Assembly: GCA_017446265.1 (NCBI GenBank) | Contig: JAFSRD010000027.1 | Coordinates: forward strand, 1 to 64,000 | Reading direction: 5' to 3' | DNA length: 64,000 bases | Source: Treponema sp. | Lineage (GTDB): Bacteria; Spirochaetota; Spirochaetia; Treponematales; Treponemataceae | Shown: in pieces, positions 9,144-25,359 of the stretch | Position numbering within the stretch: the stretch's first letter is position 1 | How the letters are laid out: each line of letters opens with the position of its first letter | Program-made: the position numbers and the translations under genes | The notes under the pieces: model-generated | The model's input: the letters and a program-made list of their open reading frames with translations, nothing else | Database searches by the model: none | Told to the model about the DNA's origin: nothing

Positions 9144-10910
9144 ATGGATTTTTCTGCGGTTGCACATTATGCGTTTGATAATTATTGCTATCCGCTTGAC
9201 AAAGACAACCTTGCAATAAACATACGCACGGGAAAAGATATTGTGCGTGTCGCGCTCATCTGGGGAGACCCGTTTACTGGCGGCATTTTTGGAGGCAAAT
9301 GGAACTGGCACGGCGAGCGCATTGAGATAGCGCGCGTAAAAGAGCTTCCAAATCATTTGTGGTGGTCAACAGTCGTGCAGCCTCCATTTAAACGGTGCCG
9401 TTATTTTTTTGAGCTTGATGACGGTGTGCGCGTCATGCTGTATTGCGAAAACGGTTTTTTTACTGAATCAGAATTGCGCGCAAAGTCGATGCCCGCACCG
9501 TTTATCTTTCCTTGGATGAACGAAGTTGACATTTGCGCTCCTCCTGTATGGGCGCGCAGCACCGTGTGGTATCAGATTTTTCCGTCGCGCTTTTGTCGCG
9601 TTGCGTGCAGTTCTGATGTTGCGCCATGCTGCGAGTGGGCTCCGCCGTACCGTGCAGTAACGAACGAAGAAAAATATGGCGGCAATTTGCAAGGCATAAT
9701 CAGCCGCCTTGATTACCTTGAACAACTTGGCGTAAACGGCATCTACTTGAACCCCGTGAACAGCGCGCCATCCGAGCATAAGTACGACACGACAGACTAT
9801 TTTACAATCGATGCTTCATTTGGCACGAAAGACGACATGAAGCGCCTTGTTGCGCAAGCGCACGCGCGTGGAATCAAGATTATGCTCGATGGCGTATTCA
9901 ATCATACTGGATGGGATTTTTTTGCCTGGCAGGATGTGCTCAAAAATCGTGAACGCTCGAAGTATGCATCATGGTATATTATTAACAATTTTGATTTTGA
10001 CAAAGAACAGCATTCTGCCGCGCAAGACGGAAACTATTTTGCATTTGCATTCGTAGACAACATGCCCAAGCTCAACACGAGCAATCCCGAAGTACGAGAT
10101 TATGTGCTACGCGCATGCGAGATGTGGGTACGGGAATATGATATTGATGCAATTCGCCTTGATGTTGCGAATGAACTTTCGCACGTTTTTTGCCAAGAAC
10201 TTCATACGCGTCTTAAAAAACTCAAGAGCGATTTTTTTATTGTAGGAGAAGTGTGGCACAATGCGCTTCCCTGGTTGCGCGGCAACGAATTCGATGCTGT
10301 CATGAATTATCCGTTGCAAAATGCCATCTCAAATTTTGCGCTTACGCCGACGATGGCCGCAAAAACATGTGAGCAACATGTCAATCGCTGCCTTGCCATG
10401 TATTACGAGCAGACGACATGCGTTCAGTTTAATTTGCTCGACAGTCATGATACAATCAGGCTCGTCACAAAGACGGAAAACCGCGATGCAACTTTGCAAC
10501 AATTTGCGTTTTTATTTTCAATGCCCGGTTCCGTATGCATCTATTACGGTACCGAAGTGCTGCTTGCAGGCGATTATGACCCTGATTGCCGTCGGTGCAT
10601 GCCGTGGAAAGAAATTGATGACGGACAGTATGCAGAGGAGTTTGCATTTATGCAGTCGCTCATTGCGCTTCGAAAAACACATGAAGCGATGCGCAGCGTA
10701 GACATGCAATTCGTGTATGGCGAAAATGCTCCAGAGAATGGGCGTGTTGTTCACCTGAAAAAGAAATCTGACAGCGAGACGCTCAATTTATTTTTTAACT
10801 TTGGCAGCAACGACATACACTGTAATTTTTTGCATGGCAACGTGCTTCTTGCACGCTGCTGTGACGGCAACACGTTGCACAGCGGCGGTTTTGCCATAGT
10901 CAAAGCGTGA
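9144..10910 (+). CDS. Cytoplasmic neopullulanase/cyclomaltodextrinase (GH13)
   Basis: A 588-residue GH13_20-type enzyme without signal peptide. An N-terminal CBM34-like beta domain (about 1-125) is followed by the (beta/alpha)8 barrel starting at VWYQIFPSRF. The four GH13 regions are visible: DGVFNHTG (near 249), IRLDVANE with nucleophile Asp340, VGEVWHN with acid/base Glu369, and DSHD with Asp436. Such enzymes split maltodextrins, cyclodextrins or pullulan inside the cell. This gives it the last step of the locus that follows: products imported by MalEFG would be its substrates. It starts directly after the preceding stop, without a ribosome site of its own, so coupling is likely. Confidence 0.88.
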   Translation: MDFSAVAHYAFDNYCYPLDKDNLAINIRTGKDIVRVALIWGDPFTGGIFGGKWNWHGERIEIARVKELPNHLWWSTVVQPPFKRCRYFFELDDGVRVMLYCENGFFTESELRAKSMPAPFIFPWMNEVDICAPPVWARSTVWYQIFPSRFCRVACSSDVAPCCEWAPPYRAVTNEEKYGGNLQGIISRLDYLEQLGVNGIYLNPVNSAPSEHKYDTTDYFTIDASFGTKDDMKRLVAQAHARGIKIMLDGVFNHTGWDFFAWQDVLKNRERSKYASWYIINNFDFDKEQHSAAQDGNYFAFAFVDNMPKLNTSNPEVRDYVLRACEMWVREYDIDAIRLDVANELSHVFCQELHTRLKKLKSDFFIVGEVWHNALPWLRGNEFDAVMNYPLQNAISNFALTPTMAAKTCEQHVNRCLAMYYEQTTCVQFNLLDSHDTIRLVTKTENRDATLQQFAFLFSMPGSVCIYYGTEVLLAGDYDPDCRRCMPWKEIDDGQYAEEFAFMQSLIALRKTHEAMRSVDMQFVYGENAPENGRVVHLKKKSDSETLNLFFNFGSNDIHCNFLHGNVLLARCCDGNTLHSGGFAIVKA

Positions 10911-11221
10911 TATGGCGCCAGTGATTCATGCAGAGCGTCAGACAGCGGTGCTCGCATCAAGATAGATGGTATTCAACCCTCGCCACGAATAATTTCCGTA
11001 CAGTTTATATCACGAAGTGATGTATTGAACCTTTCGCGCGAATAAAAAAATCACTATATCCTGCTTGAATATAACAAAATTTTAATTTTTATACAAAAAT
11101 ACCGCACAATTGCACAAAAAATACATTTTTGCGCAAAAAAACATGTTTTTTTCCTTGACAAATTGCGAATCTCGGTTAAAAATTATGTATAAAATATAAC
11201 AATTAATTAAGGAGGACGCAA
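10911..11221 (+). promoter_or_regulatory. Control region of the alpha-glucan operon
   Basis: No gene is visible in these 311 bases. ATCAC-GAA-GTGAT (near 11009-11021) is palindromic. Bases 11110-11120 and 11126-11136 form an 11-bp inverted repeat (TTGCACAAAAA/TTTTTGCGCAA, one mismatch). It abuts a perfect 18-bp palindrome of A7-CATG-T7 (11135-11152). TTGACA follows at 11155-11160, and a TATAAA near 11188-11193 is too far for a standard spacer, so the -10 is uncertain. AAGGAGG precedes the ATG at 11222. The stacked palindromes look like a repressor or activator site. Confidence 0.5.
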
Positions 11222-13327
11222 ATGAAAAAAATGTGTGCTTTCATTCTTGCTGTGTTGCTATGCGCCGCAACTTTTGCAGATGTATCAGTGAAAAAGCTTG
11301 CGGACGGCAACATTGAAGTGACGTTCTTTTATGGAAATCCACGTGCACAAGAAGTTGTTATTGCCGGCGATTTTACCGATTGGCAAAGTGGCGCGCTGCC
11401 GATGACCAAAGGTGAAAAGGGCTGGACATTTATAAAAGTTGTGCCGCCTGGAACTGTTATGAAATATAAATTTATTTCTGATGGCAATTGGACAGAAGAC
11501 TTGAACGAGCCTGACAAAATTGATGACGGCTTTGGCGGGCACAACGGGCTTGTAGATGTAGATGTGCTCGTTGCGGCAGCGAGCGGCGAAGCATCTGTTG
11601 TTGCTGCGAGACCGACAATTAAATTCGGCACATGGTCAATGCTCGGCTATCAGATGTTGTGGGGAGACGGCTCAAAAGACAATCGCGGTACGCTCGACAG
11701 CGCAGGGCTCAATCTTAAATCATACTTGAAGATAAGCGGTGAAGCGCTCAAAAATTTTCCTGTATATTTTGAAATTGCGCTTGCAGAGCAGGATAATTTT
11801 AATAACTTGTATGAAAAAGGCAAGACGAGTTGGGGAACAGGATGGACTAATTTGCTTGTGGATACGATTTTTGATCCCACATATTATTATGGTGGACAGG
11901 CTGCGGCTGCGTCATATCTCGGTCATTTGAAGATTGGTTTTAACACGCCGTATGTCAATTGGACAACGGGTTACAAATATGCAAAGCTCCCGCCGCATAC
12001 AAACGTCAACTGGGTGACTGTTGACAAGGAATGGGAGGCGGGCTACAGCTCAATTGGCGGTTTCAATCATTTTGATTTTGCGCCGCTTTTCAATAAAGTG
12101 CTCGACGGAACGGGCGTAGAAGTGAATGCGGTAATTGCTCCAAACCGCACGGCAGACAGAGCGGGAAAGCAGTACGGCCTATACACCTATGGCAATGTCC
12201 GCTTTACTGTTGGTGGATTCTCTCAGTATTTTGACGTCCAGTATAACGGTGCATTCGGCACAACGTTTAAAGAAATCTTCAAATTCGTTATGGAAGAAGA
12301 TTTCATTTTCGGCTATCAGGGAACATTTGGTCCTGTAACAGCAAAAGCGAACGTATTGTTCAATTTGTACGGTTCCTCTGTTTCCGGTCCGTATAAGATT
12401 AAATATTCTCCGCCGTCATCTGATGTTGGCGCTGTTGACGAAAATCCAGAGAAAAAAATTGACAACACTGCGTTCAATATCAATGCATCATACAGCGGCG
12501 ATTACATCGGTGCAACGCTTGGTTATCGATGGCGCGGCGCTCAAGCAAGCATGATGTATGTTGAAGACAACAATGATGACGACCACCGCAACATCTCTGA
12601 CCAGCTTGGGTATCGCAATACGCAGATGATTTGGGGTGATGTGCATGGGCTGCTCGCGTATGACTCGCTCACGCTTGGACTGCGTGGCGACATGACTATG
12701 ATTCTTCACAAAGATGCAGACTACTGGTATGACGCGACAACAAAGTTTGCTGATAAAACTGCGTTGCTCTTCCACTTCCGTCCGTACTTTAAGCTTGACT
12801 TCGACGCATTGCTTGCGTTTCCTGCGATGCTTGACGGGTATATGCAATTTGATGCAATGACAAAAGACATGTTTGTGCGCAGCAGGGCTGCACATTTTAT
12901 TGTGGCTGATGCGGGCTTGCGCTACACGCAGACATTTGAAAACGATGCAGTGAAAAAGCTCACGGCTACATATGCATTTGACAATCTCGGTGCGGAATAT
13001 CTTTTCAATACGCTTTCTGCAGATATTACGTTCAAATATGATTTTATTGCGTCGTTTGGCATAGGGCTTCGTACAAAGAGTGCAAAATCTGATTTTGCAA
13101 GTCCGTTCGCACTATATGCAGGCGTGCAGAAAAAAATCAAACCGATGTATGCGCCGACAGCATACTTGCAAATTATGTACGGCATGGATCCGTATAAATC
13201 ATTTGGCGACGGACCTGTTGCATACAACTACAACTCAAACAGTTACACGTGGTATCGCGACAGGAGCGGCCGCAGTGATTACGATGGCAAGACAGCAATT
13301 CGTCTCGGTCTCATGTGGGATCTCTAA
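11222..13327 (+). CDS. Outer-membrane barrel with N-terminal glycogen-binding domain
   Basis: This 701-residue protein has a signal peptide (cleavage near residue 20, AATFA). It is followed by a CBM48/AMPK-type glycogen-binding E-set domain (about 22-105): VVIAGDFTDW, then KYKFISDGNW, the aromatic pair that usually grips alpha-glucan. The rest is rich in alternating aromatic/polar strands with Gly/Asn/Asp turns and ends TAIRLGLMWDL, as an outer-membrane beta barrel would. No catalytic motif is present. It is the first gene of the glucan operon, before a lipoprotein, pullulanase and MalEFG. I infer a glucan-binding porin, functionally similar to LamB or SusC but unrelated in architecture. The barrel call rests on composition only. 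Confidence 0.75.
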   Translation: MKKMCAFILAVLLCAATFADVSVKKLADGNIEVTFFYGNPRAQEVVIAGDFTDWQSGALPMTKGEKGWTFIKVVPPGTVMKYKFISDGNWTEDLNEPDKIDDGFGGHNGLVDVDVLVAAASGEASVVAARPTIKFGTWSMLGYQMLWGDGSKDNRGTLDSAGLNLKSYLKISGEALKNFPVYFEIALAEQDNFNNLYEKGKTSWGTGWTNLLVDTIFDPTYYYGGQAAAASYLGHLKIGFNTPYVNWTTGYKYAKLPPHTNVNWVTVDKEWEAGYSSIGGFNHFDFAPLFNKVLDGTGVEVNAVIAPNRTADRAGKQYGLYTYGNVRFTVGGFSQYFDVQYNGAFGTTFKEIFKFVMEEDFIFGYQGTFGPVTAKANVLFNLYGSSVSGPYKIKYSPPSSDVGAVDENPEKKIDNTAFNINASYSGDYIGATLGYRWRGAQASMMYVEDNNDDDHRNISDQLGYRNTQMIWGDVHGLLAYDSLTLGLRGDMTMILHKDADYWYDATTKFADKTALLFHFRPYFKLDFDALLAFPAMLDGYMQFDAMTKDMFVRSRAAHFIVADAGLRYTQTFENDAVKKLTATYAFDNLGAEYLFNTLSADITFKYDFIASFGIGLRTKSAKSDFASPFALYAGVQKKIKPMYAPTAYLQIMYGMDPYKSFGDGPVAYNYNSNSYTWYRDRSGRSDYDGKTAIRLGLMWDL

Positions 13328-13345
13328 ACGAATTTAGGAGGAACG

Positions 13346-13894
13346 ATGATGAAAAAATTAATAATAACGATTGCGACAGGTGCGCTCATGCTGTTTGTCG
13401 GCTGTCCGACTCAGCATCGTAATTTAAGCTATCCAAACTACGCACTGCCGTTTGATGTCGCGCTCACGACAACGACGAACACTGCGCAGGCGTTGGTAGT
13501 AAGTGTGCCAACGGTACAAGAATACAGCAAATATACATTTACCATAACAAATCTTGCTGCGGACATAGGCAAACAGTTTGTCGTGGCAGGTGCAAGTATC
13601 AGTTCGACAGCATCAAATTTTGCTGACAACTGGAATGTGGAAGCAGATAAAATTACTGACAAAGGGCTGTCTGGCACTGTCGATGGCACGGGAACGCTTT
13701 CCATTACGTTTTATGGCAAAAAACCAAGTTGGGCATCAAGAAATTCGGCGATGTTTAAAATCTGCCAATACGGTACCTGGAATAATCCGTATTTCCAAAC
13801 AGGAGGAGATAACGGCTTTGTGGACAACTCAAATACTGGCACGGCAAGCGGTAACTATGATGTTACGGTAACAATTGATGCAAGCAAATTCTAG
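13346..13894 (+). CDS. Small lipoprotein of glucan locus, unknown function
   Basis: A 182-residue lipoprotein; the signal ends at the cysteine of LFVGC (about residue 20). The remainder is Thr/Asn/Ser-rich with predicted beta strands and an aromatic patch near the end (GTWNNPYFQTGG). I do not recognise a family. AGGAGG precedes two consecutive ATGs (13346, 13349); either may be used. Lying between the glucan-binding barrel and the pullulanase, and followed by a terminator, it would be made in excess over the downstream enzymes. I infer a surface or periplasmic glucan-binding accessory. Confidence 0.7.
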   Translation: MMKKLIITIATGALMLFVGCPTQHRNLSYPNYALPFDVALTTTTNTAQALVVSVPTVQEYSKYTFTITNLAADIGKQFVVAGASISSTASNFADNWNVEADKITDKGLSGTVDGTGTLSITFYGKKPSWASRNSAMFKICQYGTWNNPYFQTGGDNGFVDNSNTGTASGNYDVTVTIDASKF

Positions 13895-13904
13895 GTAATC
13901 GTGC

Positions 13905-13936
13905 GGGGCTGTCGCAGTCAGTGGCAGCCCCATTTT
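13905..13936 (+). terminator. Intra-operon terminator
   Basis: GGGGCTG pairs with CAGCCCC around a 13-base loop, followed by ATTTT. It lies between the lipoprotein and the pullulanase, with no clear new promoter before 13993. Partial read-through would give high barrel and lipoprotein output and lower enzyme and transporter output. Confidence 0.65.
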
Positions 13937-13992
13937 GCAAGTGCTTTGACCGCTGTCGGAGCATTTGCAAAATGCAATAAGCGAGGATTGCC

Positions 13993-16722
13993 ATGGTAAA
14001 AAAGTATTTGCCTATTGTTTGTGTGTTTTGCCTGTGCGTATTTTTGTTGCCGCTTGTGGCTCAGCACATGCCCGGTACATTTGAAAATGCTGCGCCTGCT
14101 TCGCTTGAAGCAGTGCTTGCGCTCGACAAAACGCTCAATCTTTCTGGAGACGAGCTTGTCGTGTACTACGTGCGCCCCGACAAAAACTACGCACCGTGGG
14201 CGCTGTGGGTGTGGGCAAATCCAGGTGGCGACGGCAATGCGTTGTGGAGTTACACGCAAAGGTGGAGTGAAAAAGATGGCATTGGCTACATGCGGTTGCG
14301 TCTTGATGGGAGCGACACGGGCGGCGTAAAACCTGTGGCAGAAAATGGCGGGATTGGCCTCATTGTGCGGCAAAAAGATGGCTGGATAAAAGATGGCGAT
14401 GATGACCGCCTGTGGAATGTCAACACATCAAAAAAGATTGTTATTTTTTCAGGGGACACAATGACATATGCAGCAGAACCGTACAAACCATCCATAACAT
14501 CGGCAGAACTTTCTTCACCACGCACTATCAATCTTACATTGTCAGGAAAGTACGCGCTCGGTTCTGGAGCATCGGGGTTTGTCGTTTCAGATGAACAGGG
14601 GAAACGCATTGCTGTTGTGAGCGCGCAAAACGCTGATGGCGGCGCATCGAATTTTACTGCGGGCGTTGTGCTTGCGCTTGCTGAAAACGCCCCGCTTTCT
14701 ACAAGGCTGCGCGTGTCGCATGCTGATTTTCGCGGTACAACGACGGTAGATGCAAGCGCGCTCACTGTAAAGATAGCGGAGCAGACAGTGCCGTCAGAAA
14801 ACGTGCAGCTCGGTATGACGTATGAAAACGGCAGCGCGTCTTTTGCACTGTGGGCTCCTACATCGTCTTCGGCGACGCTCAACCTGTATTTGCGCGACAC
14901 AGCGACACGCCCCGACTATACTGTCCGCATGATAAAAAACGATGCAACAGGCGTGTGGTGGTGCAGGTTTGCTGTGATTGATCCCGACGGCATGTTCTAC
15001 GATTTTACGCTTGTCAATGCGCATGGCTCTGTGACTGTGCTTGACCCATACGCTGTCTCTATGGCAGCATACCGAAACGATGGAACAGTAGGGCGGGGTG
15101 CAATTGTCGACTTGAACAGTCCGAAAGCGTTGCCTGACGGCGGCATGGCATCGTATGTACAGCTTGCAAAACGGGAAGATGCGGTCATCTATGAAATGTC
15201 TGTGCGCGATTTTACTATCAGTTCCGATGCACATGTGCGAGCTGTTCCCGGCACATATGCTGCATTCATTGAAAAGATACCGTATCTTAAAAGTTTGGGC
15301 ATTACGCACGTGCAGCTCATGCCTGTGATCAATTTTTTCTACAATGACGAGTTCAACACATCATATGAAAATTCTGGTTCCGTGAATGGCAACAACTACA
15401 ACTGGGGCTATGACCCGCACAACTATTTTACGCCAGAAGGATGGTTTGCAACTGATGCGCGCGACCCGTATTGCCGTGTGCGCGAGCTTAGAGAGCTTGT
15501 CAACGAATGTCACAAAGCGGGAATAGGCGTGCTGCTCGATGTTGTGTACAACCATATGGCAGAAACGCGCTTCCTTGATGATATTGTGCCGGGCTACTAT
15601 TTCCGCATGAACGAGCGCGGCAGTTGTACGAATGCATCTGGGTGCGGCAACGACACTGCTACAGAGCGCACGATGATGAAGCGGCTCGTTGTCGATTCTA
15701 CGTTGCACTGGGTAAAGAATTATATGATTGACGGATTCCGTTTTGACCTCATGGGGCTCATGGAGTCATCATCAGTTCTCGAGTCATATGCAGCATGTGC
15801 AAAAGTGAATCCGTTTGTTCTCTTTGAAGGCGAAGGGTGGAAAATGTACAACGGTTCTGAAGATACTGTCGGCATGGATCAAAACTACATGACAAAGACG
15901 GACAACGTTGCCGTATTCAATGACGAGTTCCGAGATTTATTAAAAGCAGGCGGTTTCAACGAAACAGGACGCGGTTTCATCACTGGCAAAGGTGTTGACT
16001 CCGAAAGATTGTTCCGCAACTGCATTGGAAGCCCTGTTGTCAATTATCGTGCAGATTCTTCTGGCGACAATCTTCAATATCTCGTGTGCCATGACGGGCT
16101 TACGTTGCACGACAGCGTTGTGCATAATCTCAAGCTTGATGAAATGCGTGACCGTGCAGAGATTATCAAGCGCTTGAAGCTTGGCAATTTTTTTGCGCTT
16201 ACCTCGCAGGGAATTGCATTTTTGCATGGCGGGCAAGAGCGTGGCAGAACAAAGCCAAATGTGGCAAACGCAAAGAATGAATGCATAGGCAATTTTGTGC
16301 GCAACAGCTACGATTCATCAGACAACATAAATCAGTTCGTGTGGGAAATTGATGAAGATTATCAAACGCTTCTTGATTATACAAAAAGTTTGATTGCGCT
16401 TCGCCGCGCATTCAACGTGTTCAGGATAGGCGATGCAACAAAAATTGCCAAGCGTGCGCAGCTCTTGCAGATTGATGATGCGGAGCGTCTTGTGTTCGGC
16501 TATTCAATACAAGATGGCGATAGCTTATGGATTATCCTCGTGAACGGGAAAAAAGAAGCTGCGCGAATCAATGTGCGTACAAGTTTGAAAAATGCGCGCG
16601 TGATTGTCGATGCTGAAAACGTAAATGCTGACGGCATTAAAATTCCAAAAGGTGTTGCAATGCGCGGCAGGCTTGTTATCCTTGATGGGCTCACTGCAAC
16701 GATTATCCGCGTGGAAAAATGA
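13993..16722 (+). CDS. pulA: Secreted type I pullulanase
   Basis: A 909-residue debranching enzyme that cleaves alpha-1,6 bonds of pullulan and branched dextrins. It has a signal peptide (about 1-23). A CBM41-type starch-binding domain follows (about 45-140, with WALWVWANPGGDG). Then come a beta linker, a CBM48 (about 270-370) and a GH13_14 barrel with YNWGYDPHNYF and LLDVVYNHM. The nucleophile is Asp585 in FRFDLMG, the acid/base Glu614 in EGEGW, and the third acid Asp701 in CHDGLTLHD. There is no lipobox, so it is periplasmic or released. It lies downstream of the intra-operon terminator and 101 bases before malE. Confidence 0.92.
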   Translation: MVKKYLPIVCVFCLCVFLLPLVAQHMPGTFENAAPASLEAVLALDKTLNLSGDELVVYYVRPDKNYAPWALWVWANPGGDGNALWSYTQRWSEKDGIGYMRLRLDGSDTGGVKPVAENGGIGLIVRQKDGWIKDGDDDRLWNVNTSKKIVIFSGDTMTYAAEPYKPSITSAELSSPRTINLTLSGKYALGSGASGFVVSDEQGKRIAVVSAQNADGGASNFTAGVVLALAENAPLSTRLRVSHADFRGTTTVDASALTVKIAEQTVPSENVQLGMTYENGSASFALWAPTSSSATLNLYLRDTATRPDYTVRMIKNDATGVWWCRFAVIDPDGMFYDFTLVNAHGSVTVLDPYAVSMAAYRNDGTVGRGAIVDLNSPKALPDGGMASYVQLAKREDAVIYEMSVRDFTISSDAHVRAVPGTYAAFIEKIPYLKSLGITHVQLMPVINFFYNDEFNTSYENSGSVNGNNYNWGYDPHNYFTPEGWFATDARDPYCRVRELRELVNECHKAGIGVLLDVVYNHMAETRFLDDIVPGYYFRMNERGSCTNASGCGNDTATERTMMKRLVVDSTLHWVKNYMIDGFRFDLMGLMESSSVLESYAACAKVNPFVLFEGEGWKMYNGSEDTVGMDQNYMTKTDNVAVFNDEFRDLLKAGGFNETGRGFITGKGVDSERLFRNCIGSPVVNYRADSSGDNLQYLVCHDGLTLHDSVVHNLKLDEMRDRAEIIKRLKLGNFFALTSQGIAFLHGGQERGRTKPNVANAKNECIGNFVRNSYDSSDNINQFVWEIDEDYQTLLDYTKSLIALRRAFNVFRIGDATKIAKRAQLLQIDDAERLVFGYSIQDGDSLWIILVNGKKEAARINVRTSLKNARVIVDAENVNADGIKIPKGVAMRGRLVILDGLTATIIRVEK

Positions 16723-16823
16723 TGCTGTGCATGGTGCGTTGCGTTTTAGAGCATCGTTGGAATTGGCAAAATCCGGTGTGGCCGGTATGTATAAAATCTT
16801 TATGAACAATGGAGGCATATTCT

Positions 16824-18005
16824 ATGATGAAAAAAATTGCGTGCATGTTTGCAGTTGTTGCACTGTGTGCTTCGCTGTTTGCAGCTCCGGCAAAGCGCAT
16901 AACGCTCAAAGTGTGGGAATCCGACGGTCCTGAAAAAGAATTTGTCATGTGGGCTATCAGGGAATTCAGGAAGACGCATAAACGCACCATGATTACCTAT
17001 GAGCCTGTCGGCTCTACAGATTCACGTGCAAAGATTGAGCTCGATGGACCTGCTGGTGTCGGTGCCGATGTATTTGTCGCGCCGCACGACCACATAGGTG
17101 CACTTGTAAATGGCGGTCACGTTGTGCCTATTTCAAACAGCGCGTATCTGAATCAATTCATTCCTGCTGCGAAAACAGCTTCCACGTACAACGGCAAGGC
17201 GTATGGCTATCCGCTCGGTATTGAAACATATGCGCTCTTCTACAACAAAAAGCTTATTAAAAATCCGCCGAAGACGTGGGAAGAAATCATTCAGTTTGCA
17301 AAGACATATAACGACAAGACGCAGAATAAGTATGCGCTCGTGTGGGCAGTCGGCGACGGCTATTATCAATACATGTTCATGAGTTCGTTTGGCGCACAGC
17401 TTTTTGGACCAAACGGCAACGATAGAAAACAGCACAGCATCAACAGTGCTGCTTCTATTAAAGGGCTTACGTATTTGCAAAATTTGCGGAAGCAGATTCT
17501 TGATGTGCCGTCCGCTGACATGACGGGCGATTTTTGCAATTCTTCATTCATTGAAGGCAAAGCTGCAATGATTATTACGGGTCCGTGGAAAATAGCTGAC
17601 TTCACAAAATCAGGTGTTGATTTTGGCATTGCAACATTGCCAGAATTTCCCGAGCAAAACAAACCTGCAACATCATTTTCAGGCGTGCGCCTTGCATTTG
17701 TGAGCTCATACTCGGAAGAACCGGAAGAAGCGGCTGCGTTTGCAGAATTCTTAACAAGCAGGGAAGCGTTGCTCAAACGATTTGAAATGACGCGTCAGAT
17801 TCCTCCGCGTACTGACATTACGACAAATGATCCGCTCTCAAATGGCATTCTTGCGCAGACAAAATACGCAGTGCCTATGCCGACCATTCCGCAGATGGGC
17901 ACGTACTGGTCAGCTATGAACGCGGCATATGCAGGCATTTGGGATGGCGACGACGTAAGGACGGCGCTCAACTCGGCAGCTGCTGCGATGGACGGCGCAC
18001 GCTAG
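16824..18005 (+). CDS. malE: Maltodextrin-binding protein
   Basis: MalE-type extracellular solute-binding protein (family 1) of 393 residues. The signal peptide ends near LFAAPA. The mature start KRITLKVWE is followed by GVGADVFVAPHD, YPLGIETYALFYNKKL and a MIITGPWKI segment, all typical of maltose/maltodextrin binders. There is no lipobox cysteine, so the protein should be soluble in the periplasm. GGAGG lies 8 bases before ATG 16824; a second ATG is adjacent. It captures maltodextrins for MalFG. No malK ATPase gene is in the window, so an ATPase must come from elsewhere. Confidence 0.9.
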   Translation: MMKKIACMFAVVALCASLFAAPAKRITLKVWESDGPEKEFVMWAIREFRKTHKRTMITYEPVGSTDSRAKIELDGPAGVGADVFVAPHDHIGALVNGGHVVPISNSAYLNQFIPAAKTASTYNGKAYGYPLGIETYALFYNKKLIKNPPKTWEEIIQFAKTYNDKTQNKYALVWAVGDGYYQYMFMSSFGAQLFGPNGNDRKQHSINSAASIKGLTYLQNLRKQILDVPSADMTGDFCNSSFIEGKAAMIITGPWKIADFTKSGVDFGIATLPEFPEQNKPATSFSGVRLAFVSSYSEEPEEAAAFAEFLTSREALLKRFEMTRQIPPRTDITTNDPLSNGILAQTKYAVPMPTIPQMGTYWSAMNAAYAGIWDGDDVRTALNSAAAAMDGAR

Positions 18006-18035
18006 TTGTCGAGCGGCAATGGGAAAATGGATGGA

Positions 18036-19970
18036 ATGAGCAACATAAATCCTGCAAAAGTAAAAAAAGCGCCGTTTGCCTCTGCCTGTTTTATGGGGCT
18101 TGGACAGATTTTGTTCTTGCGGCAATTTATACGCGGCGCAATCCTTATGCTTTTTGAACTCGTCATGCTCTGCTTTGTTGTCTTTGGCACAAAAAAAATC
18201 ATACCTGCTGACAATGCTGAAAACGAATACATGCACGGCACGCCTGATGCAGTTGCGATGATTGCATATCTTGCAGAGCATGAATATGCGCAGCTCAACG
18301 ACATGCTTGTTGCGCGTGAAAAAAAAGCAGAACGCTATATACGGACGCACCTTGCTTCGTGGACAAAAAAAATCACACGCCATTACAACAAACGTGATGC
18401 AGCGCTCGGCGAAGAAGTGCAAACATTTTTTGATGAATTTGTGCCGCTATATGCAGACGCAATTGATTATTCCGACCCCTATGCTGTCGAGGATGCTGTT
18501 TTTGAAATAGCAGATGCGGTAGAAATTGCTGTTGCTGATTTCCAGCTCGCGCGTGATGAAGACGACTCATATGAAGATGTTGTCGTTGCAGACGGTGAAA
18601 AATTCATAGACAGGTTTATCGCCATGACGGAAAAATCTGACCGCGCGCTCAGCAAAGCGATGGCAAACATGGCCATAGCTAATGGGGAGGCAGAGCTGTT
18701 CGACAAGCATTATGACGGCTGCGCGCTATGCAAACGAGCTGCTGCATCGGGGCGTCGAACGCTCGGACATCGCGCATGGTTCCGTGGTCCTATTGTTGCT
18801 GCATTGGCGGGGCTTGTGACGCTCGGTTCTGTTCAGCCGACAACGGTAATAAAATATGCAGACCATTCAATCTTTATGATGATAAACGGCCTGCTTGTCA
18901 TTATCATCCTTGCGATTTTTTTTGTCACATATGCATTTAATATCATATATGCAAAAAAAGATGCTGAAAAAATCATAAAGAACAACAAGTTTCCAACATT
19001 CAGCGAGTCGCGCAACGACATTGCGCAGAATTCGTTCGCAGTCATAGGCATTGCGCCGTGCATCATCATGATTGCGTTTTTTACGGTAATACCGCTTTTA
19101 TTCTTCGCGCTCGTTGCATTTACAAATTACTCGTCGCCCGACCACATACCGCCGAACAATCTCGTTGATTGGGTGGGATTTGAAAACTTTGTTACCATGT
19201 TTAGTTCAAAGGGGAGCAGCAGCGGGCAATGGTTCAGTACATTCGGACGAGTTGCGCTGTGGACTGTTGTGTGGGCGGTGTGCTCAACATTCACGTGTTT
19301 TTTTGCAGGATTTTTTTTCGCAGTCATCTTACAGGACAAGCGCATAAAGATTCCAAAACTATACCGTACAATATTTATCCTTCCCTATGCCATACCAACA
19401 ATGCTTTCACTTTTTATTTGGGCAAATTTATTAAATGGCACATTTGGCCCTATCAACCGCACGCTCATGTATTTTCAATTTATTGCAGAAGGCATTCCGT
19501 GGCTTTCAAATCCGGTAATGGCGAAATTCTCGCTCATTCTTGTCAATATCTGGATAGGATTCCCGTATAGCATGATTCTCATTACGAGCAGCATGACAGC
19601 TATTTCAAATTCTGTGTACGAAGCAGCTACTATCGATGGTGCAAACAAGTGGATGCAATTTAGAAGCATTACGTTTCCGCTCGTTATGTTCCAGCTAAAA
19701 CCAATCCTCATCATGCAGTTTGCGGCAAACATTAACAATTTTGGGGCGGTGTTTTTTCTCACTTCTGGAGGTCCGAATCTGCCTGACACAATTTCCACGC
19801 AAGCAGGTGCTACCGACATTTTGATTTCGTGGATTTACAAGCTGACAATGAACACGCCCAACATGTATAACCTCGCTTCTGTACTTTCAATTCTCGTGTT
19901 TGTCGTACTCGTGCCATTTGCGCTCTACAACTTCATGCGCACAAAATCATTTAAGGAAGGTGAAGTATGA
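18036..19970 (+). CDS. malF: Maltodextrin ABC permease MalF with large insertion
   Basis: The permease core (from about residue 245) carries the usual MalF helices and the cytoplasmic EAA loop (YEAATIDGANKWMQFRSITFP). The N-terminus has the Gram-positive-type GLGQI helix. Between that first helix and RGPIVAALAG lie about 200 extra residues (50-248), acidic and helical, with a CALC pair near the end; most MalF proteins have only a short loop there. With 644 residues it exceeds the 430-515 typical of the family. Start is uncertain: TTG 18006 and ATG 18027 are alternatives and none has a strong ribosome site. malE is 30 bases upstream and malG overlaps the stop by 4 bases. Confidence 0.87.
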   Translation: MSNINPAKVKKAPFASACFMGLGQILFLRQFIRGAILMLFELVMLCFVVFGTKKIIPADNAENEYMHGTPDAVAMIAYLAEHEYAQLNDMLVAREKKAERYIRTHLASWTKKITRHYNKRDAALGEEVQTFFDEFVPLYADAIDYSDPYAVEDAVFEIADAVEIAVADFQLARDEDDSYEDVVVADGEKFIDRFIAMTEKSDRALSKAMANMAIANGEAELFDKHYDGCALCKRAAASGRRTLGHRAWFRGPIVAALAGLVTLGSVQPTTVIKYADHSIFMMINGLLVIIILAIFFVTYAFNIIYAKKDAEKIIKNNKFPTFSESRNDIAQNSFAVIGIAPCIIMIAFFTVIPLLFFALVAFTNYSSPDHIPPNNLVDWVGFENFVTMFSSKGSSSGQWFSTFGRVALWTVVWAVCSTFTCFFAGFFFAVILQDKRIKIPKLYRTIFILPYAIPTMLSLFIWANLLNGTFGPINRTLMYFQFIAEGIPWLSNPVMAKFSLILVNIWIGFPYSMILITSSMTAISNSVYEAATIDGANKWMQFRSITFPLVMFQLKPILIMQFAANINNFGAVFFLTSGGPNLPDTISTQAGATDILISWIYKLTMNTPNMYNLASVLSILVFVVLVPFALYNFMRTKSFKEGEV

Positions 19971-20854
19971 ACGAAAACAGAACATGCAGCAATTCGCCTG
20001 TTGTCATTATTTTGACAGCAATATTAATAATTCAACTCCTTGTAGTGCTGTATCCTATTGCATTCACTATAAGTGCAGCTTTTACAAAATCAAACTCGCT
20101 TGCAGCAACGTCAATAGTGCCATTTCCCAAAGAGCCGTCGTTGTACCAGTTTCGGCGGCTGCTTACGCCTTCAGACCAGTTTGTAAAAGGTACGACAGAT
20201 GTGCACGGCACAAATTACGTACATTGGTACTTCAACACGCTCAAAGTTGCCTGTCTGAATACGGTACTGACTGTCATTTTGTGCAGCCTTGCAGGATATA
20301 TCTTTTCGCGTTTTACGTTTCCGTTTCGTAGAACGGTTATGGCATCTATGGTCATCTTGCAGATGTTTCCAAGTTTTATCGGCATGATTGCAACGTATGT
20401 CATCTTGTGGAAGATAAACGGGCTCGACACATTGTGGGGGCTTGTGCTTGTGTATTCAGCGGGAAGCATTCCGTTCAATTCGTGGCTGATGAAAGGATAT
20501 TTTGACACTGTGCCAAAAGAACTTGCCGAAGCTGCATACATTGACGGCGCCACGCCATTTACTGCGTTTTTGCGCGTTGTGCTGCCTGCTGCAAAACCGC
20601 AACTCATATTTCTTGCGCTCACGAGCTTTACCGGTCCGTGGATGGATTTTATTTTTCCGCGCCTTGTGTTGCGCAGCGACAGCAAAAAAACGCTTGCGGT
20701 AGGTTTATTTGAAATGATCAACAATCGTGCAGCAGACAATTTTACCATGTTTGCAGCAGGTGCGCTTCTTGTTGCAGTTCCGTTTACCATTTTGTTTATG
20801 GCGGGACAAAAGTCGCTCATTCAATCGCTTGCAGGAACAGGGGGCAAAGAATGA
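19967..20854 (+). CDS. malG: Maltodextrin ABC permease MalG
   Basis: MalG, 295 residues, six predicted membrane helices. The binding-protein-dependent permease signature loop reads ELAEAAYIDGATPFTAFLRVVLP, which couples to the ATPase. WFNTLKVA precedes the second helix and NSWLMKGYFD the loop, as in other MalG. The start codon overlaps malF's stop (ATGA), and its own stop overlaps the amylase start in the same way, so all three are translationally coupled. It forms the inner-membrane channel with MalF. Confidence 0.93.
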   Translation: MNENRTCSNSPVVIILTAILIIQLLVVLYPIAFTISAAFTKSNSLAATSIVPFPKEPSLYQFRRLLTPSDQFVKGTTDVHGTNYVHWYFNTLKVACLNTVLTVILCSLAGYIFSRFTFPFRRTVMASMVILQMFPSFIGMIATYVILWKINGLDTLWGLVLVYSAGSIPFNSWLMKGYFDTVPKELAEAAYIDGATPFTAFLRVVLPAAKPQLIFLALTSFTGPWMDFIFPRLVLRSDSKKTLAVGLFEMINNRAADNFTMFAAGALLVAVPFTILFMAGQKSLIQSLAGTGGKE

Positions 20855-22473
20855 CGTATAAAAAATTATTAATTTTATTCTGCGCGTCGTTATTGCTTGA
20901 GGCGTGCATGTCTTCTGCAAAAGATGCTCGCACACATGGTGGTGCAAATATCGGAGTGGCAGCGCTTCCTCGCCATGCCGTGTTGCCATCTGAAGGCGTG
21001 TACTACAGCCTTTTTGTGCGTTCGTTCGCTGACTCAAATGGTGATGGCATTGGCGATTTTAACGGATTGATTTCGAAACTTGACTACCTCAACGATGGCG
21101 ATGACGCAACGACAGATGATTTAGGCATTACTGGCATATGGCTTTTGCCAATTTACCCGACGCAAACATATCACGGGTATGATGTAGACGATTACTACGA
21201 TGTGAATCCGCAGTACGGTACTATGGCAGACTTTGAGCGGCTGCTTGCCGAATGCGAGAAGCGCGGCATCTCCGTTATCCTCGATATGATGTGCAATCAC
21301 TCGTCACTATATAATCAGTGGTTCATTGATTCGCGCAATCCAAATGATGCGCACCGTTCGTGGTACCGCTGGATTTCAGCAGACGATTCACGATTTAGCC
21401 TTCGTCAACAGATTTGGGGACACAATGTCTGGAACGCTTATAACGGCTGCTACTACGCAGGAATTTTTTCGTCGCATATGCCAGACTTCAATCTCGACAG
21501 TCAGGAGTTGCGGCAGGAGTTCAAAAAGGTGATGAAATTTTGGCTTGACAAAGGTGTTGCTGGTTTTCGATACGACGCTGCAAGCCATGTATACAACAGC
21601 GCAAAAACACCGCCCGGCACAAACTCTATTGAAAAAGGTGTTGCCTGGTGGAAGGAGATTGTCGAGTATAATAAAAGCGTACGACCAGATGCATACATAG
21701 TTGGAGAGGTGTGGGAGCCTGCTTCGACACGCGCGCAATATATGGCGGGACTCGGCTCTACGTTCCATTTTGACATGGGCACAAGAATCGTGGATGAGAT
21801 ACGCTCGCAGAGTGCTGCAAATAACAATTACGCTGCCGCATTGCAAGGTGAATATGAGCGATATGCGCAATCAAATCCTGATTACAAAGATGCGCCATTT
21901 TTGTCTAACCACGATCAGAATCGCATTGCAGGTTTGTTGCGCGGTCAAGTGCCGCAGTTGAAGCTTGCAGCTGCAATGTACATTTTTGCAGAGGGCGTGC
22001 CGTTCATCTATTACGGCGAAGAGATAGGCATGATGGGAGCAAAGCCTGACGAGCAGCTGCGCACGCCAATGATATGGAATGTTGCCAACCGTGACAAATT
22101 GCAAACGACGTGGGAAACGTCACGTTATAATAAAAATACATTGAGCGTTGCCGAGCAGGAAAAAGATCCTGACTCGCTGTTGCAGTTTTACAAGCGCGTT
22201 ATCAGAATAAAGACCGCTCACCCTGCGCTGTATCGTGGGCGATTTACGGCGCTGTCAACAGGCAACGAATTTGTTTCGTCATGGGCAATGGAATATGAAT
22301 CTGAAAAAGCGTTTGTGCTTCACAACTTGTCTCCAGAAAAAACGGCTGTTCAGATTCCAGAAGCGTATAATCTGCCTATTGTGTTTTCAACGTACAAAGG
22401 AACCGCTGCAACTTCAAACGGATATTTGACAATTCCTCCGTTCTGTTCAGTTGTGCTGGCGGAACATAAATAA
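20851..22473 (+). CDS. Lipoprotein alpha-amylase (GH13)
   Basis: A 540-residue GH13 enzyme with a lipoprotein signal (Cys in LLEAC, near residue 19). The barrel begins VYYSLFVRSFADSNGDGIGDF. Catalytic landmarks: MMCNHSS, nucleophile Asp242 in FRYDAASH, acid/base Glu286 in VGEVWEP, Asp355 in SNHDQNR. The short C-terminal domain carries no starch-binding module. The FADSNGDGIGDFNGL calcium/QPDLN-type region fits alpha-amylases and oligo-glucosidases. As an anchored enzyme encoded at the end of the transporter operon it should trim dextrins in the periplasm or at the surface just before uptake. Its start overlaps malG's stop. Confidence 0.9.
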   Translation: MTYKKLLILFCASLLLEACMSSAKDARTHGGANIGVAALPRHAVLPSEGVYYSLFVRSFADSNGDGIGDFNGLISKLDYLNDGDDATTDDLGITGIWLLPIYPTQTYHGYDVDDYYDVNPQYGTMADFERLLAECEKRGISVILDMMCNHSSLYNQWFIDSRNPNDAHRSWYRWISADDSRFSLRQQIWGHNVWNAYNGCYYAGIFSSHMPDFNLDSQELRQEFKKVMKFWLDKGVAGFRYDAASHVYNSAKTPPGTNSIEKGVAWWKEIVEYNKSVRPDAYIVGEVWEPASTRAQYMAGLGSTFHFDMGTRIVDEIRSQSAANNNYAAALQGEYERYAQSNPDYKDAPFLSNHDQNRIAGLLRGQVPQLKLAAAMYIFAEGVPFIYYGEEIGMMGAKPDEQLRTPMIWNVANRDKLQTTWETSRYNKNTLSVAEQEKDPDSLLQFYKRVIRIKTAHPALYRGRFTALSTGNEFVSSWAMEYESEKAFVLHNLSPEKTAVQIPEAYNLPIVFSTYKGTAATSNGYLTIPPFCSVVLAEHK

Positions 22474-22483
22474 TGGGAGCCTC

Positions 22484-22500
22484 TAAAAACTTCAGTTTTA
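22484..22500. terminator. Bidirectional terminator palindrome
   Basis: TAAAAAC-TTCA-GTTTTA sits exactly between the converging amylase and M16-like genes and includes the latter's stop codon. The same palindrome overlaps the stop codon at 5865. It probably terminates both transcripts. Confidence 0.5.
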
Positions 22501-25359
22501 CCGTTTTGCATCTTTTGAATACAGACGAAGCGGCACTGCTCCTGAAAAATATGCTTCGCAGAGCGCGACAACTGTTTCTTGTGAGACAGAATTAATAATT
22601 TCATAATTTGTTAAATACTGTACAGCATCTTTTTTGCTGTTGCCGCTTATAGCGCTTTCAAGCCCTTCGTGTATGAGCAGTGCAGTGCCGCGGTTCGTCT
22701 GCGTGCCTGAAAGTGCAGCGAGCACCCAGTTGTTTTTCAATTCTTCTGCCAGTTGCAAAAATGTTTCTGCATCTTGTGCGTCTTGCAAGATTTGTGCAAC
22801 AGTCTCTTCGTACAATTTATCGATTTGATTTGTGCTGTCCACGTGCGTAATAGTGATTGCCGCCGCTTGCATGGCGTATGTTGCCGCTTCTGCGCGCACC
22901 GACATGTCTGTCGAAATAGCTGCCACTTTTTTTTCAAGACGAGAGCGCAACGTATGTACGAGCGCATTGAATACGGCAAAATCAGGGGAGGCGGGCTTTG
23001 GAGATGGAAGCCAATATTGTGCAGGGTCTGAAAAGTTCGTTGTTGGTACGAGCACGAGCGGGCGCGGGCCTGCTTTTTCTGCGCTTATGTCAGTCATAAA
23101 AAGATGGCGGAGCGTTACGCGGATACGCTTGTTGCGCGGAAACTGCGGAGCCACTGTCGAGATTGCCCGTGCGTCGCGCGAAGTTTGTGGTAAAAAAATG
23201 CCGAGCGACGATTCAAGCGCGCTTTTAATAAGCTCTTCGTGAAAATTGCCGACAACTACTACTGTGTATTTTCCTGCGTCAAGCAGTTGCGGGTATGATG
23301 TGAGTATGTCTGTGTACTGCACATGTTCAAGGATGTCGCGGTCGCTGTCAAATAGTGCGGTGTACGGTGTTCCTGCAAAAAGTTCGTATATTGCACGGCT
23401 ATATAATTGATTTATCGTGTTGCCGTTGTGAAGCCGCTTTTGAGAGCGGGCATCGTATACAAGTCCGTCTGCTTGCGCTGGCAAAATATTGCCGTAAACG
23501 AGCGCGCGAGATATGCACGGAATGATTACGTTCATGTCATCGGAAAGGCTTTCAACCGATATTGTGCCGCTTGTTAAATTTGTTTCTGCGCGCACTGAAG
23601 GCGTTCCGTCAATTGCGCCATTCGCTTTTTGCCTATTGACTTCCTTCTGAATATTGTCTGCGAGTGCGTTTATTAAGATTGAAAAGAATCCCGGGTTTGA
23701 TGCGCTTGAAAGTGCGCCGCCATGTATAGAAAGAAGTATGAGTGCAGATGACGATGATTCATTTTTTTTAAATATGACGGGAATGCCATTTTTAAGGCAG
23801 TCCGATGAAAATTGTGCCTTGTTCTGTTCAATATAAAGTGGTTCGTTGTCGCTTTCCATTTCTTTGCGTGAATCTGAAAAGGCGAGATTGCTGTCTGTAA
23901 TGTTTTTATACAACGCCTGCGTGTACCATGAGCCGTTTTTTTGCGTTATTAATTCGTATCCTGCATTTTTAAATTCTTTTGCAAAACGATTGTAGCTGTC
24001 GCTGTTTACGAGTACAAAAACGAACGGCATTTCTTCACTATATGCGTGTTGCAGTTCTGCGCTATTAAAATTAATAATTTCATTAGGGCGTGAAAGCAAC
24101 CGATTTACAAGAGGCATCCCATCATGGTGCGTTGTGTCTGAAACAGCCCATAACGCAGAAAGCGTTTCCATGAGTTGCGTCGAAGAGCCGAACAATTCGC
24201 TGTAACCCGCAACAAGTGCCCCACGCGTTGCAATAAGTTCTTCGCCGAGTAGTGTGCGTGCCGCCTCTTTTGCACAATCGACAAAAAGTTCAGCTTGTTC
24301 TGCGGGAGAAGTTTTTGTTTTTTCAAGGAGCGACTGAAATATGAGTCGCGACTCGCCATTCTTATGCGCAGCAGCAACATTTATATATTCTGAGCCACGT
24401 ACTGCAAGTTCATTGTGTGAAAGCACCGATTTTTTGAACGACGATGCATATGCGTTGAAACTTGCAGCAGCGACATCTGCCTGCACCATTGAAAGGCTTT
24501 TATATTGCACAACAATTTGTGTCAAGTCGTCAGAGAAAACAGGGTCAGCCATGACAAATTTTCGCTGTTCTGTTTTGCTCTTTGCCGCAAGTATCTTTTG
24601 TGTGTTGCCGCTCTGCTGTACGGCAACTGTGCCTCCTTGCCACATGCCAAATGTTTTTTCTGCAAGCGCAAGCGCATATTCTTTTGTAATGCCTCCGCTT
24701 ATAAAGAGCGCGCTGTTTTTGGGTACATAATATGTGCGCGCAATGTTCATCAAAATAGAACGAACTTCTGCAATCGGCGTATTTGTAAAAAGCGCAGGGT
24801 ATACGCCTGTGTCCTGCTTCCATGGGGCATCTGCATACACACGCGCGTCAATGCTCGCGTTGATAAATCCTGCCGTACTGTATGAGTAATTCATCACTTC
24901 ATTTTTGAGTGCAGTAAATTGTGCTTGCATCTCTTTGTCGCTGAACACTGGCGCAAATGCGCAGTATGCCAATTCTTCAAGTGTTGTTTCCACTTGCGAA
25001 GGCGCAACTGTCAAAATGTAGTGCGCAACGTCTGCCGTGCATTCGGCAGTTGCATTGGAAATGAGCCATGCATTATCCTGCGCATATGACGTCTTTCCAG
25101 CAGTTGAAAAAAGACGCGTATATAATGGAAAAAATCCTGCTGTTTCAGGTGTTTGCATGCTCACGCCTGCGCGGCATGCGTATTCAATTCTGATGGGCGC
25201 GGATGCAAAATCTTCAAGCACAAAAATCTGCATGCCGTTTTCAAGCGTGTATTCTGCAAATCCTGCGGGAGCGTTTGCATGAGCTGCTGCAGTGTATAAA
25301 AAAAAGGCAGTTGCAAAAAGTGAAATTGATAATGTATGTTTTGGCAGACGACTTATCAT
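22498..25359 (-). CDS. M16-like periplasmic protein, zinc motif lost
   Basis: A 953-residue protein with a signal peptide (about 1-30) and the four-domain layout of M16 peptidases: YTLENGMQIFVLED begins the first domain and NGIPVIFKKN the second half. Active M16 enzymes carry HxxEH in the first domain. Here the aligned segment reads FFPLYTRLF, with neither histidine nor glutamate. The second half also lacks the motif, as is normal. It is therefore probably a chamber-forming or binding pseudopeptidase. It converges with the glucan operon and diverges from DUF4954. No ribosome site is visible; an extended -10 lies 9 bases before the ATG. Confidence 0.8.
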   Translation of the reverse strand: MISRLPKHTLSISLFATAFFLYTAAAHANAPAGFAEYTLENGMQIFVLEDFASAPIRIEYACRAGVSMQTPETAGFFPLYTRLFSTAGKTSYAQDNAWLISNATAECTADVAHYILTVAPSQVETTLEELAYCAFAPVFSDKEMQAQFTALKNEVMNYSYSTAGFINASIDARVYADAPWKQDTGVYPALFTNTPIAEVRSILMNIARTYYVPKNSALFISGGITKEYALALAEKTFGMWQGGTVAVQQSGNTQKILAAKSKTEQRKFVMADPVFSDDLTQIVVQYKSLSMVQADVAAASFNAYASSFKKSVLSHNELAVRGSEYINVAAAHKNGESRLIFQSLLEKTKTSPAEQAELFVDCAKEAARTLLGEELIATRGALVAGYSELFGSSTQLMETLSALWAVSDTTHHDGMPLVNRLLSRPNEIINFNSAELQHAYSEEMPFVFVLVNSDSYNRFAKEFKNAGYELITQKNGSWYTQALYKNITDSNLAFSDSRKEMESDNEPLYIEQNKAQFSSDCLKNGIPVIFKKNESSSSALILLSIHGGALSSASNPGFFSILINALADNIQKEVNRQKANGAIDGTPSVRAETNLTSGTISVESLSDDMNVIIPCISRALVYGNILPAQADGLVYDARSQKRLHNGNTINQLYSRAIYELFAGTPYTALFDSDRDILEHVQYTDILTSYPQLLDAGKYTVVVVGNFHEELIKSALESSLGIFLPQTSRDARAISTVAPQFPRNKRIRVTLRHLFMTDISAEKAGPRPLVLVPTTNFSDPAQYWLPSPKPASPDFAVFNALVHTLRSRLEKKVAAISTDMSVRAEAATYAMQAAAITITHVDSTNQIDKLYEETVAQILQDAQDAETFLQLAEELKNNWVLAALSGTQTNRGTALLIHEGLESAISGNSKKDAVQYLTNYEIINSVSQETVVALCEAYFSGAVPLRLYSKDAKR

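Follow-up and report, generated by a model that had tools for sequence, protein, structure and literature searches.

How the products of starch degradation cross the outer membrane of spirochaetes without LamB or SusCD is a question for which we found no published description, and spirochaetes are abundant in the rumen and gut. A concrete candidate occurs in a 64,000-nucleotide stretch of contig JAFSRD010000027.1 from a Treponema sp. (the window, which lies on contig C12; the genome totals 2.2 Mb). Seven genes at 11222-22473 form an operon encoding, in order, a secreted protein that joins a glycogen-binding domain of carbohydrate-binding module family 48 (CBM48) to an apparent outer membrane barrel, a lipoprotein, a pullulanase, MalE, MalF, MalG, and a lipoprotein amylase (Table 1); the closest relatives of the barrel are from Treponema. 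We consider it likely that this is an alpha-glucan (starch or glycogen) uptake operon built on a large outer membrane pore with the glycogen-binding domain beneath it. Its gene content supports the capture-to-import path that an initial annotation, made from the sequence alone, had proposed.

The CBM48-barrel protein consists of a signal peptide (residues 1-19), the CBM48 domain (20-114), a linker (115-131), and a predicted 24-strand barrel (132-701) with the C-terminus ...MWDL. AMPK1_CBM (PF16561) is matched at residues 41-114 (E 2.3e-9, 37.7 bits against a cut-off of 26.8) and CBM_48 (PF02922) is also matched (E 8.3e-5, 23.3 bits against 22.4), while a sequence search of the PDB matched the glycogen-binding domain of AMPK beta1 (E 3.5e-7). 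W54, K83, W90, and N108 are invariant in 25 of 25 homologues and align with what we take to be the ligand-contacting residues of AMPK beta1; in a wider set of 33 homologues, 29 have W and 4 have Y at the position of W90. Three loci also encode secreted proteins of 119-152 residues that are 50-65% identical to the signal peptide and CBM48 of the barrel protein and lack the barrel (L045:14911-15369, L052:12297-12656, and L064:8533-8916). These are possibly free periplasmic glycogen-binding proteins, or remnants.

Residues 130-701 match no Pfam or NCBIfam family. The AlphaFold2 model, computed from alignment A2 of 33 homologues (a 25-member alignment was also built), has a mean predicted local distance difference test score (pLDDT) of 83.2 and a predicted template modelling score of 0.72, and it places a CBM48-like strand set at residues 20-112, followed by about 24 antiparallel strands from 132 to 700. 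The prediction thus combines a signal peptide, amphipathic antiparallel strands, and an aromatic-rich C-terminal strand, as in outer membrane barrels; in nearly all homologues the last three residues are aromatic, acidic, and aliphatic or aromatic, in that order, with WDL, WDF, or WEF in most. The leading Foldseek matches are all outer membrane barrels (ushers, LptD, TonB receptors, AlgE, and porins). No TonB plug or TonB receptor family (PF07715/PF00593) was detected in the protein, the sole TonB plug of the genome being on another contig (C32), and the LamB family (PF02264) is absent from both the protein and the genome, control genomes having given a match. A possible enzyme in residues 110-701 was rejected, as Pfam, NCBIfam, and PDB sequence searches of this region gave no match to one and weak Homer matches (E ~0.2) are attributable to chance. 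The description of a CBM48-fused apparent outer membrane barrel that is neither LamB nor SusC by sequence is therefore borne out by Pfam, AlphaFold2, and the fold search, with a barrel in the model and no enzymatic domain in its place.

In the VIA comparison, whose top matches are likewise all outer membrane barrels, the model matches AlgE (Z 18.3), chitoporin (17.6), the PapC usher (16.9; root-mean-square deviation (rmsd) 4.5 for 390 residues that extend to the C-terminus), and maltoporin (15.3, below other porins), with OccK and MOMP also within 15-18. The leading position of AlgE, together with the general occurrence of periplasmic N-terminal domains in exporters, could indicate that the barrel exports polysaccharide in the manner of AlgE or BcsC, with a periplasmic CBM48 feeding glucan outward. 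However, AlgE is within one Z unit of the uptake porins OccK, chitoporin, and MOMP, and the operon encodes a MalEFG importer and enzymes that degrade glucan, both secreted and lipoprotein, but no synthase, so that export is very unlikely. Outer-loop motifs at 253-280 (YAK, W264, T266, W271, and AGY) and 307-319 (PN, R313, G315, and G319) are among the most conserved positions of the barrel, and we suggest them as candidates for a sugar-selecting constriction.

The loops of the model bear on which side of the membrane the CBM48 occupies. The 12 odd inter-strand loops comprise 10, 42, 27, 10, 13, 32, 28, 20, 12, 5, 9, and 37 residues (mean 20), and the length of most of them varies greatly between homologues; the 11 even turns comprise 2, 4, 14, 2, 2, 3, 4, 8, 5, 3, and 7 residues (mean 4.9) and are mostly constant in the family (Mann-Whitney p 2e-4 for odd versus even lengths). 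In outer membrane barrels, short turns are periplasmic and long loops face outside. Because the alternation follows this rule, strand 1 is predicted to start in the periplasm, with the CBM48 located there or in the lumen. The model fits a periplasmic position for both barrel termini, and hence for the CBM48, which probably accepts maltodextrin as it leaves the pore; capture at the surface would then fall to the lipoprotein. The initial annotation had assigned outside capture to the CBM48 itself, which would require the N-terminus to be threaded to the surface or to sit in the outer barrel mouth. Such a role would suit a polymer-binding domain with intact ligand residues, but the loop-length alternation and fixed turns place the N-terminus in the periplasm, as is the rule for even-stranded outer membrane barrels, and partner lipoproteins of several loci already bring starch-binding modules. 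We therefore regard capture by the CBM48 at the surface as improbable.

A different role, which would count against that of a periplasmic receiver, is that of a ligand-opened plug or gate, with the CBM48 folded inside the barrel lumen as a TonB-independent counterpart of the SusC plug. The linker between the CBM48 and strand 1 (115-131) is short, and a 24-strand pore would be leaky unless occluded. However, the protein has no plug-family match, and proteins of other phyla with two CBM48 domains (discussed below) would need a plug of a different size; there is accordingly little likelihood of a lumenal plug, and we retain the periplasmic CBM48.

The lipoprotein slot next to the barrel is conserved, while the sequence of the partner occupying it is not. 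All 35 of the 35 barrel genes with following sequence in the named spirochaete loci are directly followed by a lipobox gene, starting between -47 and +200 nt from the barrel stop and encoding a signal peptide and a lipobox cysteine; three lipoboxes missed by the pattern (LSFMGC, FAFMGC, and TFFWSC) were read by eye. The same is true of ten more barrels in eight further spirochaete genomes (10/10), bringing the number inspected to 45. By a strict automatic rule, a lipobox gene follows 31 of 33 barrels and 33 of 172 (19%) other genes in the same loci (binomial p 2e-20), this background being high because the loci are rich in lipoprotein amylases. The partners range from 129 to 874 residues. The 182-residue lipoprotein of the window has no Pfam match above cut-off, a PDB profile search with it found nothing, and its clear relatives are confined to few lineages. 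What is universal beside the barrel is the slot, and not this sequence. Since six partners carry a starch-binding module above cut-off (CBM26 in L083, L084, L087, and L096; CBM20 in L076; SusF_SusE in L093), we take the slot to be one for lipoproteins that bind starch and the protein in the window to be a divergent example. A SusF_SusE match in the L081 partner is below cut-off and there is none in the window, and no SusD-family protein occupies the slot in the window or the other loci checked. Two barrel-lipoprotein pairs occur in tandem at each of L102:7516-13279, L157:4228-10377, and L158:8217-14028, which suggests that barrel and lipoprotein genes are duplicated together.

The remaining genes supply the enzymes and the inner membrane step. 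MalE, MalF, and MalG are all present by Pfam family; among specific NCBIfam models, those for MalF and MalG score best against the two permeases, below the curated equivalog cut-offs, and the one for MalE ranks second for its protein. No MalK ATPase is encoded in the operon, and no search for a shared ATPase elsewhere in the genome was made. The N-terminal ~250 residues of the MalF-like permease are unmatched by the shorter MalF homologues of several loci. Three of the seven GH13 matches in the whole genome fall within these 13 kb, so the clustering is not due to chance. Intergenic gaps, in operon order, are 18, 98, ~100, and 0 bp, followed by overlaps. The cytoplasmic neopullulanase that had been noted upstream is present as a GH13 protein with no evident signal peptide; several Treponema loci have an orthologue upstream of the barrel gene. 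The operon starts with the barrel gene, 311 bp beyond the neopullulanase gene, which is probably outside the operon proper.

Based on these components, we propose that the partner lipoprotein, putatively on the outer face, keeps starch or glycogen bound at the outer membrane, where the lipoprotein amylase and secreted pullulanase, judging by their families, would cut it. Maltodextrins could then cross the predicted 24-strand pore, and the periplasmic CBM48 may bind the emerging chains, raising their local concentration and favouring net inward movement, or keeping them for periplasmic enzymes. MalE, MalF, and MalG would import the maltodextrins for degradation by the cytoplasmic neopullulanase. 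Because the pore has no TonB plug, passage through it is probably passive, helped by binding on both sides.

Table 1. Features of the alpha-glucan operon and its upstream gene, with positions in the window
Feature	Positions	Strand	Basis
Neopullulanase/cyclomaltodextrinase-like GH13, cytoplasmic, 588 residues	9144-10910	+	Pfam Alpha-amylase 4.6e-69, Alpha-amylase_N 3.1e-19
Promoter-like site TTGACA-N17-AAAAAT, 5' of barrel gene	11155-11183	+	Consensus match only
Shine-Dalgarno AGGAGG of barrel gene	11210-11215	+	Sequence
CBM48-barrel protein, 701 residues	11222-13327	+	Pfam, AlphaFold2, Foldseek, VIA, alignments
CBM48/AMPK-type glycogen-binding domain	11279-11563	+	Pfam, PDB sequence match, conservation
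Predicted beta-barrel of 24 strands; outer loops long and variable, periplasmic turns short and mostly of fixed length	11615-13324	+	AlphaFold2, VIA, topology
Lipoprotein in partner slot of barrel, 182 residues	13346-13894	+	Lipobox LFVGC
Secreted type I pullulanase, 909 residues, PUD-CBM48-GH13-SpuA_C	13993-16722	+	Pfam/NCBIfam
MalE-type maltodextrin-binding protein	16824-18005	+	SBP_bac_8 1.6e-44
MalF-type permease, 654 residues, long N-terminal extension	18006-19970	+	BPD_transp_1; NCBIfam
MalG-type permease, 295 residues	19967-20854	+	BPD_transp_1; NCBIfam
Lipoprotein alpha-amylase, GH13 and SusG-type C-terminal domain	20851-22473	+	PF00128 5.8e-83, PF23915 SusG_C 3.5e-10; lipobox LLEAC read in sequence

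Every gene named in the initial annotation was found where it had been placed, and Pfam confirms each part except the lipoprotein; the start of malE is more likely at 16824 (MMKK...) than at 16809, as previously given. The promoter-like pattern occurs at 26 sites against 18.7 expected in shuffles, which argues only weakly for the site upstream of the barrel gene. An Rfam scan of the window returned a single tRNA and no riboswitch. The 3' end of the operon meets an opposite-strand gene at 22498; this gene (22498-25359, minus strand, 953 residues) converges on the operon and by eye resembles an insulinase-type (M16) peptidase.

Among 195 genomes of the family, the barrel sequence is present in 32, a count that leaves out genomes with CBM48-only matches and includes a few contig-edge fragments. 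Named carriers include Treponema socranskii, T. saccharophilum (two copies), T. porcinum (three), T. ruminis, Rectinema subterraneum, Brucepastera parasyntrophica, and a metagenome-assembled genome (MAG) of Gracilinema caldarium. Across 296 genomes of the phylum, the barrel was matched within the same taxonomic order and in further families of the class, and beyond these only CBM48-sized matches were obtained. GH13/pullulanase genes adjoin most barrels, and MalE orthologues 57-83% identical occur in ~37 genomes of the family. The predicted co-occurrence of barrel and malE is strong, with an orthologue in 25 of the 32 barrel genomes and 12 of the 163 without a barrel (Fisher p 1.6e-16), although the genomes are related, so that this and the binomial p-value above overstate independence. 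Other observations also weigh against an uptake operon built on a pore of this kind. Seven of the 32 barrel genomes have no malE orthologue, locus L045 has no GH13 gene within ~10 kb, and the window's own lipoprotein carries no recognizable carbohydrate-binding module. Moreover, the TM-scores from Foldseek do not exceed 0.37 over the query; at such low values the modelled barrel is a match to the class and not a close fold match, and the strand count is taken from DSSP of one model and could be off by two.

Two spirochaete-type loci are unusual. In T. socranskii ATCC 35536 (L068:10001-18047), in-frame stops (2 TGA) interrupt the barrel gene and the amylase frame is shortened, reflecting either draft-sequence error or a decaying locus; a further copy from this species (L069) is intact. 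A contig filed under Acetatifactor, a Firmicute MAG (L093), holds a Treponema-type barrel and lipoprotein and is probably mis-binned.

The design had been thought possibly spirochaete-specific, which the wider searches do not support: within the searches made, the barrel family is restricted to spirochaetes, but the architecture is not. MAGs of Krumholzibacteria, Cloacimonadota, Zixibacteria, and Elusimicrobia, the source of all non-spirochaete carriers known here, encode a CBM48-barrel followed by a lipoprotein. These proteins are secreted and contain one or two CBM48 domains and then a long barrel-like region ending in an aromatic residue; six such genomes have one full-length copy each. Where there is enough downstream DNA, the next gene encodes a lipobox protein of 126-155 residues in 14 of 14 cases, and the partners, where tested or matched, are themselves CBM48 proteins. 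One locus (L141) encodes the barrel, a CBM48-lipoprotein, a CBM48-GH57-CBM20 amylase, MalE, MalF, and MalG, nearly the order of the window. Its barrel model (pLDDT 68, lower than the spirochaete model) matches the AMPK carbohydrate-binding module (Z 13.5, rmsd 1.6) and the outer membrane barrels AlgE, CymA, and chitoporin (Z ~13). Some distant matches of the scan (L107, L108, L110, L112, L118, and L119) were not counted as barrels, since they are enzymes of GH13/GH57 or CBM48 proteins of another kind.

Thus, the pairs of other phyla share the layout of the spirochaete pair, but their barrels have no detectable homology to it: homology was rejected, as the full-length hhalign probability of 99.6% is carried by the CBM48 and the barrel-only probability is 0.7%. 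Given that no match was obtained between the two groups with barrel-only profiles, independent CBM48-barrel fusions are a simpler reading than distant common descent, and the recurrence suggests a solution reached more than once. A tentative extension, which we hold as possible but doubtful, is a recurrent, cross-phylum, TonB-independent mode of glucan uptake in which large outer membrane pores of separate origin have each gained a periplasmic domain that binds glycogen, together with a constant lipoprotein partner that binds starch, and in which polymer binding on two faces, not TonB, drives import of long maltodextrins. Should the periplasmic CBM48 indeed serve as a receiver, it would offer a simple means of drawing long chains inward without TonB. 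The fixed two-gene signature of CBM48-barrel and lipoprotein is present in named species, making growth and bilayer tests feasible.

The literature search, which did not cover most subscription papers, found no description of a CBM48 or glycogen-binding domain with an outer membrane barrel, a spirochaete, or a maltoporin, and a survey of 76 outer membrane pore families makes no mention of glycogen, starch, or carbohydrate-binding modules (PMC4827864). The spirochaete operon is a real and, as far as we could find, undescribed variant of alpha-glucan uptake.

Of known systems, Bacteroidetes Sus (SusCDEFG) follows the same logic as the operon, with an outer membrane pore, a binding lipoprotein, and a lipoprotein amylase, the pore and lipoprotein genes being adjacent and universally paired. 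The amylase is a lipoprotein GH13 with a SusG-type C-terminus, and one partner-slot lipoprotein (L093) matches SusF_SusE above cut-off. The initial label "Sus-like" is apt for the logic and the amylase but not as a statement of SusC or SusD homology, as the pore has neither a TonB plug nor a SusC family match, the partner is not SusD, and the inner membrane step is a MalEFG-type ATP-binding cassette importer. With the enterobacterial maltose system (LamB, MalEFGK, PulA, and MalS) the operon shares MalEFG, a secreted pullulanase, and a plug-less outer membrane pore; its pore differs from LamB in sequence, has ~24 predicted strands rather than the 18 of the trimeric LamB barrel, carries a CBM48, and has a constant lipoprotein partner. 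The glycogen-binding domain itself resembles that of AMPK beta in its above-cut-off family score and in conservation at the presumed ligand contacts, but it is secreted and fused to an outer membrane barrel rather than being part of a kinase subunit or a GH13 enzyme.

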